Source: Pseudoduganella namucuonensis
Lineage (GTDB): Bacteria > Pseudomonadota > Gammaproteobacteria > Burkholderiales > Burkholderiaceae_D
Assembly (NCBI RefSeq): GCF_900116645.1
Contig: NZ_FPBO01000019.1
Coordinates: 1-64,000 of the forward strand
Length of the DNA stretch: 64,000 bases
Direction: 5' to 3'
The number at the start of each line of letters is the position of its first letter. The stretch's first letter is position 1. A model generated the notes under the pieces. That model did no database searches, was not told the DNA's origin, and saw only the letters and a program-made list of their open reading frames with translations. Positions 13,458 through 15,789 of this stretch are shown here, piece by piece. The position numbers and the translations under genes were made by a program.

Positions 13458-14453
13458 CTAGCGAAATTCGTCCGGCGGCGCAAGGTCGAGGGATGGACCG
13501 GCGTAGGCGACGACCCGGTTGCGCCCCGAGTTCTTCGCGATGTACATCGCCTCGTCGGCGTGCTTGAGCAGGTCGGCGGCGCCGTCGCCCGGCCGGTGCT
13601 GGACGACACCGAAACTGGCGCTGATGTCGCCATCCAGGCCGGGGGGGCGGTTACGCGCGACCGCCTCGCGCAAGCGCTCGGCGCATTCAAGCGCCACCTT
13701 CAGCCCCGTCGCGGGCAGCACCAGCACGAATTCCTCGCCGCCCACGCGCGCCGCCAGGTCGATCCCGCGTATGGTCGCGCCCAGCAGCCCGGCGAGGTGG
13801 CACAGCACGACGTCGCCGGCGTCGTGGCCGTGAACGTCGTTGATGCGCTTGAAATGGTCGATGTCGAGCATGATGATGGAGAAGGTCTCGCCCAGCCGGT
13901 CCGTGCGGCCGGCCGCCATCCGCATGAATTGCTCGAGATGGCGCCGGTTCGCCAAGCCGGTCAGCGGGTCCGTGTTGCTGAGCTGGCGCAAACGCTCCTC
14001 GCTGGCGCGCAGCCGCCGCTCCCTGCGCGCCAGTTGGCGCTGCATCTCGATCAATTGCTCGTTAAATTGCAGCACCTGCTGGTTCAGGTTCTCCAACTCG
14101 GCGATGTCGAATTCCGCGAACAGCACCAGCTTGTCGCCGAGGCGATGGACCACCCCGAGCAGCGAGTGGCAGACCACCTGGTTGTCGCCGACAATCAGCA
14201 TGCCCCGATAAATGGGCTGCTCGCCCAGCGGCGGCTCGGCGGCGAGCGTGCCGAACGCCGGACGGAAGAAAAAGGAAGCGACCATTTCCGATTCCGCGTC
14301 GATCCGCGCCCGCAACAGGCGGCGGAAGCCGGTGTTGCAGTCGAGCAGGCGCCCGTCCTCGCGCACCACCGCAACGACCACGGCGCTCAAGTACCTGCAG
14401 CAATCCAGCAAAGTGTCGGCGTCCAGCTCTCCCGGATCGGCCGCGCGGTTCAT
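13458..14453 (-). CDS. Diguanylate cyclase with N-terminal PAS-like domain
   Basis: 331-aa protein predicted to make cyclic di-GMP. The N-terminal 100 residues look PAS-like (VVVAVVREDGRLLDCNTGFRRLL). A charged coiled coil about 100-145 (NQQVLQFNEQLIEMQRQLARRE) leads into a GGDEF domain from NTDPLTGLANRRHLEQF onward. The active site reads GGEEF, and an RGID inhibitory I-site stands exactly five residues before it, so product inhibition is likely. Metal-site segment DIDHFKRINDVHGHDAGD. No membrane segment. The start is fixed by an ATGA overlap with the B12-binding gene, implying coupled synthesis and a signal from that partner. Confidence 0.92.
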   Translation of the reverse strand: MNRAADPGELDADTLLDCCRYLSAVVVAVVREDGRLLDCNTGFRRLLRARIDAESEMVASFFFRPAFGTLAAEPPLGEQPIYRGMLIVGDNQVVCHSLLGVVHRLGDKLVLFAEFDIAELENLNQQVLQFNEQLIEMQRQLARRERRLRASEERLRQLSNTDPLTGLANRRHLEQFMRMAAGRTDRLGETFSIIMLDIDHFKRINDVHGHDAGDVVLCHLAGLLGATIRGIDLAARVGGEEFVLVLPATGLKVALECAERLREAVARNRPPGLDGDISASFGVVQHRPGDGAADLLKHADEAMYIAKNSGRNRVVAYAGPSLDLAPPDEFR

Positions 14454-15316
14454 TGCGGGAATTGCGCGATCGCGTGCAAGGCGTCGCTGGCCCAGCCGTC
14501 CGCCTTGACCGCACGCCACACGCGTTCACCGCCCAGGGTGACCTGTCCTCCCACCATGATGGGCGGGCAGCGCTCCCCGAGCTCCGCGCGCAGTTCCTCC
14601 AGTATGCCGCGCGCCAGCGGCAGATGCGCCGGCAGCGACAGCGACAGGCAAAGCATGTCCGGCCTCTCGGCGTCGATTTGACGTGTCAGGCCGGCGGTCG
14701 GCACGTCGGTGCCGAGGTAGCTGACATCCCAGCCTATCGTTTCGAACGCGTCGCACACGATGCGCAAGCCCAGGCCGTGATGGTTGCCGGCGACGCAGGC
14801 GAGCATCAGCTTGCGCTCGACGGGCGCCGCGAAGGACGCGTGCATGTAGGCCCGCGCCAGCACGTTCTGGCTCAGCGCGGTGGCCAGGTGCTCCTGGGCC
14901 ACGGTGATGCGGTTTTCCTGCCACAGATGGCCCACTTCGACCATCGCCGGCTGCAGCAGCCGCACGGAGGCCTCGCTCAGCGAGGCGCCGTTCCCCATGC
15001 AGGCATTGAACGTTTCCTGCGCCCCGCGCTGGTCGCCGCGCAGGACCTGTTCCAGATAGCGCGCCGTCTCGGGCAGCCGCGGATGGCGCGCATACCGATA
15101 GGGATCGCAACCGTCGTCCCGCCGCAGCGCGTCCTCGCCGGCGGCCAACAGCTGGTTCAAGCGCGCCGCCACGGTGGCAGGCAGGTGTCCGGTGAAGAAC
15201 GCCGCCAGCAGTTCAAACGATTCGGCCAGATGGCCGGTCGGCACCTTGCGGCTCTCCAGCACTTTGCGCAGCCAGACCGCGTAATCCGTGAACAGGGCCG
15301 GTTCATCGGCCAGCAT
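14450..15316 (-). CDS. Cobalamin-binding, photoreceptor-type protein (open part after an in-frame amber)
   Basis: 288-residue open frame with a helical B12-cap domain (about 75-165) and a Rossmann B12-binding domain (about 168-285). The cap carries W132-x9-E142-H143, the W-x9-EH signature of adenosylcobalamin photoreceptors such as CarH/LitR. The ligand loop NHHGLG puts His180 at the lower-axial histidine of the usual D/E-x-H-x-x-G, with Asn in place of the acid. There is no MerR DNA-binding domain. The ATG used here is probably not the true start: the same frame continues upstream through a TAG (15329-15331) to an ATG coupled to the preceding gene. It overlaps the cyclase start by ATGA. Confidence 0.8.
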   Translation of the reverse strand: MLADEPALFTDYAVWLRKVLESRKVPTGHLAESFELLAAFFTGHLPATVAARLNQLLAAGEDALRRDDGCDPYRYARHPRLPETARYLEQVLRGDQRGAQETFNACMGNGASLSEASVRLLQPAMVEVGHLWQENRITVAQEHLATALSQNVLARAYMHASFAAPVERKLMLACVAGNHHGLGLRIVCDAFETIGWDVSYLGTDVPTAGLTRQIDAERPDMLCLSLSLPAHLPLARGILEELRAELGERCPPIMVGGQVTLGGERVWRAVKADGWASDALHAIAQFPQ

Positions 15317-15328
15317 GGCGCCGTCGAG

Positions 15329-15493
15329 CTAGGCGAGATGGTGGCCGATGTCTTCCCTGCATCTGGCCACGCCTTGCTGGCCGAAACGGTGGCTCATTTC
15401 CGGGTGCCGCGCGTACAGCGCGTTCACCACGGCGTCCATCGCCCGCGCACGCAATTGCTCGCTTTCCAAGCCGGCGCCGCGCGCGGCGCTCAT
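15329..15493 (-). pseudogene. N-terminal part of the B12-binding gene, cut off by in-frame TAG
   Basis: 54 codons starting MSAARGAGLESEQLRARAMD and ending EDIGHHLA before a TAG at 15329-15331. The next codons (LDGAMLADEPALFTDYAVWL) continue the same frame and the same helical pattern, so the intact gene would be 14450-15493, about 347 aa. The ATG at 15491-15493 forms an ATGA junction with the upstream gene, which supports this as the original start. Possible causes: a real nonsense mutation (for example TAC to TAG), a base-calling error, or a split into two chains. Confidence 0.7.
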
Positions 15494-15789
15494 GCCGCCA
15501 CGACGTCGAGGCGCAGCATCTCGGTACGGCCCTTGGCCAACTTGAGGCCCTTCGGGATGCCGCGGTGCGACTCGCGGTAGGAATGGCTGTGATGCCAGGC
15601 GTCGAAACTGGCCGCGTCGCGCCACCATGTCAGCAGCCAGAATTCCTTCTCATCCGCGCAGGGATTGGCGACTTCCATGCGGATGAAGCCGGGGGCGGTG
15701 TCGACAAGGTGGGGACGGGCGATAAAAGCGTCGCGTACTGCGCCGTCGAGGTCGTTGGCGACCGCGAAACGGCTAATGGACAGAAACAT
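15490..15789 (-). CDS. Antibiotic biosynthesis monooxygenase (ABM) domain protein
   Basis: 99-aa single-domain protein of the dimeric alpha/beta ABM fold, shared by small cofactor-free monooxygenases and IsdG-type haem oxygenases. Seen: N-terminal strand MFLSISRFAVAN, a PGFIRMEVANP strand and the aromatic segment EFWLLTWWRDAASFDAWHHSHSYRESH. It heads the coupled trio (ABM, B12 protein, cyclase) with a GGGAG site. Tetrapyrrole chemistry is conceivable because the fold includes haem-degrading enzymes, but no assignment is made. Confidence 0.8.
   Translation of the reverse strand: MFLSISRFAVANDLDGAVRDAFIARPHLVDTAPGFIRMEVANPCADEKEFWLLTWWRDAASFDAWHHSHSYRESHRGIPKGLKLAKGRTEMLRLDVVAA

Follow-up and report, generated by a model that had tools for sequence, protein, structure and literature searches.

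Photocobilins are a published class of photoreceptors that combine vitamin B12 with biliverdin. In the sections of the study covered here (PMC10979010), a CarH-type cobalamin domain, which stands at one or the other end of the protein in different groups, is joined to a phycobiliprotein-like globin. In SasPcob (8J2W/8J2X), Asp270 is the key biliverdin contact and Trp296 touches both ring D of the bilin and the corrin, and AbDPcob (8J2Y), with a bilin occupancy of about 20%, responds to light with adenosylcobalamin alone; the bilin was supplied to purified protein. A fused diguanylate cyclase is activated more than 10-fold by light, and a separate photocobilin acts on its cyclase by contact (PMC10979010). 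The BBAG-2 globins also occur together with B12-binding proteins and are associated with bilin biosynthesis, their neighbours being pre-PcyA and, in some cases, a canonical heme oxygenase (PMC10151467, as far as that text was available). The subject of this report is a locus of this kind in Pseudoduganella namucuonensis, within a stretch of 64,000 nucleotides (contig NZ_FPBO01000019.1, positions 1 to 64,000; the whole stretch is called the window), in which a photocobilin-type gene lies between the gene for an ABM-family protein and the gene for a diguanylate cyclase.

The three genes are consecutive on the minus strand and are linked by two ATGA overlaps, an arrangement proposed in a first-pass annotation and borne out by the codons (Table 1). 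A Pfam scan of the trio found ABM in the first protein, B12-binding and B12-binding_2 in the second and GGDEF in the third; searching the window for Rfam families and tRNA genes gave no matches. The locus is a conserved, genuine operon of a known light-sensor kind, interrupted in the strain as sequenced. Like SasPcob and AbDPcob, it unites the two sensory domains with equivalents of D270 and W296 and a diguanylate cyclase output; unlike them, it has the globin first, a separate, overlapping cyclase gene, an ABM gene ahead and an interrupted sensor copy (compared with the covered sections of PMC10979010). It shares with the BBAG-2 loci the pairing of a globin with a B12-binding protein, and differs in that the neighbour is an ABM protein (PMC10151467, in part). 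The first-pass annotation had seen in the control of cyclic di-GMP (c-di-GMP) an output different from the known transcriptional one. The coupling to a diguanylate cyclase stands; since light control of such an enzyme by a photocobilin was published in 2024 (PMC10979010, in part), the output is not new. The sensor class and the c-di-GMP output are already known, and the role of the ABM partner is the interesting part.

In the sensor, a globin domain (approximately residues 11-125) precedes the cobalamin-binding domain (approximately residues 140-347). The CarH-type core of the latter had been recognised before; the globin had been overlooked, and sequence comparison finds the N-terminal 125 or so residues to be similar to a bilin-binding phycobiliprotein. 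Because a CarH-like B12 domain and a phycobiliprotein-like globin occur in one protein, the sensor is, by its sequence, a photocobilin with the globin in front. The W-x9-EH motif and all four light signatures shared with CarH and LitR (GxxW, EH, GxxH and GxxxP), as well as D48 and W74 as equivalents of D270 and W296, are present, and phmmer gives 107 bits to photocobilins against 42 bits to the corrinoid protein 1y80. The light-type B12 domain claimed earlier is therefore found, and so is the claimed absence of a MerR DNA-binding domain: the Pfam scan gave no MerR match, and the NCBIfam CarH model scores 43.3 bits against a cut-off of 400. Unlike CarH and LitR, the sensor has a globin and a cyclase. 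Among 26 aligned sequences, the bilin-contact Trp is present in all 26 and the bilin-contact Asp in 11 of the 11 ABM-linked proteins and 8 of the 15 others. This set of 26 includes two of the five fetched Azospirillum loci and genome G867 (split genes in another order, with an Asn-type ABM alongside); it leaves out Chitinimonas (L033 and G045, apparently one contig), which has the B12 domain and a cyclase and no globin.

The ABM partner scores 49 bits with Pfam ABM (cut-off 23.1). Like IsdG, MhuD and HmuQ, it is an ABM-family member with the Trp and His of the catalytic triad, which in IsdG comprises Asn7, Trp67 and His77, with Asn7 critical (PMC6018153, covered in part). With the chains of MhuD (Rv3592) it shares the stretch R-x-H-x-V-(D/E)-x3-GF. 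Unlike these enzymes, it has Ser6 in place of the Asn, beside Trp65 and His75, a C-terminal P-(K/E)-GLKL stretch of its own, and a score of 39.3 bits against the nearest NCBIfam equivalog, HmuQ, whose cut-off is 130. Its best match in the PDB is TT1380, which is unnamed. With Ser in place of the active-site Asn, the partner should not be classed as an IsdG-type heme oxygenase, even though it derives from the heme-degrading part of the family. A single-sequence structural model (mean predicted local distance difference test score, pLDDT, 52.7) was set aside.

At position 6, the 11 photocobilin-linked ABM copies and a truncated relic in G026 all carry Ser, and the 36 other homologues aligned (25 from the order, 10 from the class and 1 from G867) all carry Asn. 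The alignment covered 26 of the 27 places in the order at which ABM copies lie away from full-length photocobilins (25 Asn and the Ser-type relic) and 10 of the 24 places in the class, all Asn. Trp65 aligned in every ABM copy, and His75 in all except that of G667, which has Gln, and the relic. A strong ABM copy (E 3e-22 or better) occurs in 10 of 17 genomes (16 with both sensory domains plus G045, which has the B12 domain only), one in each and always at the photocobilin locus; the remaining seven have no ABM or a remote one of at most 31% identity, and G891 has a second, remote copy (32%). Among 399 genomes of the order, exactly the four with a full-length globin-B12 protein reach at least 149.9 bits with the ABM profile, followed by 67.8 and 52.8; the handles listed in this draw coincide with those of the sensor-profile draw. 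As those four genomes had contributed to the profile, each of its rows was left out in turn, which gave 115-151 bits for members, 65-70 for the relic and at most 54 for other ABM proteins of the order. In a sample of 175 genomes of the class, only the P. namucuonensis genome and G454 reached at least 149.9 bits, and the next match (68.5) was an ordinary Asn-type ABM. On a tree of 25 photocobilins (G867 omitted), ABM adjacency takes about five changes (bootstrap 4-5), of which two are forced by well-supported branches. The ABM partner appears to form a distinct subfamily, apparently undescribed, dedicated to photocobilins. Literature searches, one of them judged on the best 15 of 290 matches, found no ABM link to such sensors; their coverage stopped short of the study of photoglobins by Schneider et al. 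(2022), which may mention ABM.

Two ABM copies have unusual surroundings. The relic in G026 (L102:1501-1794), which is the 67.8-bit match, is a truncated photocobilin-type ABM directly behind a hybrid histidine kinase, and no photocobilin match was found within the 12 kb fetched (L148). In G667 (L078:2535-3515), one gene, which overlaps a photocobilin gene, encodes ABM together with a PAS domain and a coiled coil with a cysteine-rich end; the PAS domain is related to that of the window cyclase, so that ABM is tied to a signalling partner too.

Conservation in relatives, on which the first-pass annotation had staked its proposal, was checked by a neighbourhood survey, and the trio recurs, with all three frames open in G1161, a congener of G257. 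A set of 41 genomes, 24 congeners among them, yields a full-length relative only in the window genome. Five of the 399 genomes of the order score at least 259 bits with the sensor profile (the P. namucuonensis genome itself, G045, where the B12 domain stands alone, and G130, G237 and G257), and the sixth-best drops to 77; the same ABM / globin-B12 / GGDEF order is present in G130, G237 and G257. The locus is patchy, occurring in 2 of 8 genomes of one genus and 2 of 60 of one family. Of the four other trio genomes, G130, G237 and G257 have an interrupted GGDEF frame (L037:2508-3523, L038:2502-3500, L039:500-1458), with the break at a homopolymer run in G130 and G237; these interruptions may be phase variation, decay or sequencing error alike. 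Further sensor matches (E 1e-30 or better) came from 7 of 369 genomes in a class sample and 5 of 398 in a phylum sample. A Ser-type ABM adjoins the sensor in six of those twelve (divergently in G454, and in G598, G667, G864, G891 and G996). It is absent from the locus in G605, G731, G776, G787 and G798, which have remote homologues or none genome-wide.

Several of these loci are built differently. G996 (L140:233-1599) has a natural split photocobilin, with globin and B12 domains in two overlapping genes behind ABM. In G867 (L142:7093-8616), ABM, B12 and globin are separate genes, with the globin last and a kinase following; this ABM is a remote one of the ordinary Asn type, and the bilin Asp has been lost from the globin. 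G787 carries three photocobilin-like paralogues (L079, L081, L082), in each of which His takes the place of the bilin Asp, as reported for AbPcob, and its genome yielded no ABM homologue. Plasmid matches were fetched for 8 of 15 (the other seven are three further Azospirillum and four Streptomyces records), and for plasmid loci L067 and L068 the absence of ABM was judged from annotation tables.

The predicted activity of the cyclase accords with its GGDEF domain (Pfam, 148.5 bits), and the GGEEF motif, together with an RxxD motif five residues ahead of it, upholds the earlier claim of a cyclase with an inhibitory site. Stand-alone and SiaD-type cyclases share both motifs (SiaD is the best NCBIfam model, at 182.4 bits against a cut-off of 290); they differ from the window cyclase in its PAS-like N-terminal domain, which, compared as a profile of the GGDEF partners, matches both the G867 kinase (hhalign probability 98%) and the PAS portion of the G667 fusion (81%). 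A domain common to the PAS-like part and the kinase N-termini of G454, G598, G891 and Azospirillum was rejected (1%, coiled coil only), as was a match to the Ilyobacter cyclase N-terminus (0.3%). A GGDEF protein stands beside the sensor in the trio genomes, Ilyobacter and a Sphaerochaeta metagenome-assembled genome, and a histidine kinase in G454, G605, G867, G891 and Azospirillum, as well as in G598, judged by 55% identity to the kinase of G454; in G864 and G996 a contig end near the B12 gene hides the partner. One 887-residue protein (L032:2339-5002) contains GGDEF, globin and B12 domains and has the top full-length identity to the window sensor (55-57%).

Table 1. Features of the ABM / photocobilin / diguanylate cyclase operon (window coordinates)
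Feature	Position	Strand	Basis
ABM-family protein, 99 aa	15490..15789	-	Pfam, NCBIfam, alignment, codons
Ser6 (IsdG catalytic Asn site)	15774-15772	-	alignment, codons
Trp65 of ABM protein	15597-15595	-	alignment, codons
His75 of ABM protein	15567-15565	-	alignment, codons
Photocobilin-type protein, 347-codon frame with TAG	14450..15493	-	Pfam, phmmer, codons
Asp48, aligned with SasPcob Asp270 (putative bilin contact)	15350..15352	-	alignment and the paper's numbering
In-frame TAG, codon 55, between D48 and W74	15329..15331	-	codons
288-codon open reading frame, possible re-initiation product lacking first globin helices and D48	14450..15316	-	list of open reading frames, codons; re-initiation inferred
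Trp74, aligned with SasPcob Trp296 (putative bilin contact)	15272..15274	-	alignment and the paper's numbering
GxxW (188-191) and EH (201-202), light-type cobalamin signature	14888..14932	-	signature (PMC11796333, in part), codons
GxxH (236-239), His239 expected lower cobalt ligand	14777..14788	-	signature (PMC11796333, in part), codons
GxxxP (261-265), light-type cobalamin signature	14699..14713	-	signature (PMC11796333, in part), codons
Diguanylate cyclase, 331 aa: PAS-like N-terminal domain, coiled coil, GGDEF domain	13458..14453	-	Pfam, profile comparison, codons
RxxD inhibitory-site motif	13758..13769	-	codons
GGEEF active-site motif	13728..13742	-	codons

The preferred reading, with a probability of roughly 0.72, is that the operon encodes a bilin/B12 two-chromophore light sensor that regulates c-di-GMP, and that the ABM protein supports the bilin side. 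The four-helix bundle and the Rossmann domain would enclose adenosylcobalamin (W191, E201-H202 and H239), and the globin pocket would take up the bilin (D48, W74). Cleavage of the cobalt-carbon bond by light, either direct or via the bilin, would change the sensor, and contact between the proteins would relay this change to the PAS-like/coiled-coil part of the cyclase, altering c-di-GMP synthesis. The chromophores, the light response and the direction of control are proposed by analogy with published photocobilins.

The first-pass annotation had suggested that the ABM protein might act on a tetrapyrrole. This link is plausible, and the Asn-to-Ser change, overlooked there, weakens a simple heme-oxygenase reading. 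Canonical heme oxygenase (PF01126) was found in one of 18 genomes (G667), by a search whose control was positive in 3 of 14 well-known genomes, and was absent from the window genome; HugZ and ChuS types, which are other heme-degrading families, were outside the search. This near-absence makes ABM a candidate source of the bilin, but it is shared by the genomes without ABM, and the genome of the fused L032 protein gave no ABM match in a search without its own positive control. That the ABM protein makes, modifies or loads a tetrapyrrole for the bilin side has, as an inference, a little less than an even chance, and actual synthesis of the bilin is rated lower than that. With odds well below even, it is tentatively suggested that the Ser-type ABM is a dedicated photocobilin chromophore enzyme or loader, i.e., a heme-degrading enzyme re-tooled by the Asn-to-Ser change, which would provide the second pigment without a canonical heme oxygenase, possibly as a bilin other than biliverdin IX-alpha. 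Enzymes of the IsdG family yield products other than biliverdin (PMC9393634, in part). Two patterns were tried and rejected: ABM as a substitute for the missing heme oxygenase, which is missing with and without ABM and so does not discriminate, and ABM strictly tracking the bilin Asp, for which the raw counts are suggestive and support is lost after allowing for relatedness, with two independent pairs left.

The sensor might instead use B12 alone for light sensing, with a bilin-free globin of structural or contact function and an ABM protein that is unrelated or that binds and regulates the sensor. This is unlikely, yet several observations favour it: the low bilin occupancy of AbDPcob and its response with adenosylcobalamin alone (PMC10979010, in part), the loss of the bilin Asp in 7 of 26 globin-B12 proteins, the Ser at the ABM active site, and the lack of canonical heme oxygenase in 17 of the 18 genomes. 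They are opposed by the retention of D48 and W74 in all 11 ABM-linked loci and by the closest ABM relatives of the partner, which are annotated as heme-degrading. A sensor of cobalamin status or redox, reporting which form of cobalamin is present and not light, is quite improbable. Corrinoid carriers have B12 domains too, and the NCBIfam scores for CarH (43.3) and MtgC (43.2) are about equal and far under their cut-offs, but the light signatures and the phmmer preference for photocobilins argue otherwise, and a globin would have no evident role in such a sensor.

Whether the locus still functions in this strain is a separate matter, and the chances are evenly divided that it is a decaying, functionless locus, presumably an operon acquired by horizontal transfer in which the sensor gene has already been disrupted. 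The TAG in the photocobilin frame, the 24 congeners without a full-length relative, the patchy occurrence and the interrupted GGDEF frames of three relatives all point that way. Against decay, the reading frames for ABM and GGDEF run without interruption, and the 347-codon sensor frame has a single stop with a similar third-position GC before (0.83) and after it (0.86), so that the interruption is either recent or an assembly error. The window copy is probably broken or shortened: with the TAG, the system is probably inactive, or yields no more than a shortened protein that lacks the full bilin pocket. The ATG that opens the 288-codon reading frame lies 12 bases past the TAG, and the residue numbers used for the B12 protein in the first-pass annotation are those of the product of this frame.

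The two-chromophore proposal bears on a point for which the covered sections of the photocobilin paper (PMC10979010) offered no answer, namely the source of the bilin in the cell and its identity. The Ser-type ABM, which in the genomes searched is found only beside sensors or as a relic, is a direct handle on that source. The unfused two-gene photocobilin-cyclase pairs provide systems for contact control, and the ABM gene is a possible tool for two-colour optogenetics. If the suggested role of the Ser-type ABM is true, light sensors would obtain bilin from a source other than the heme oxygenase pathway.
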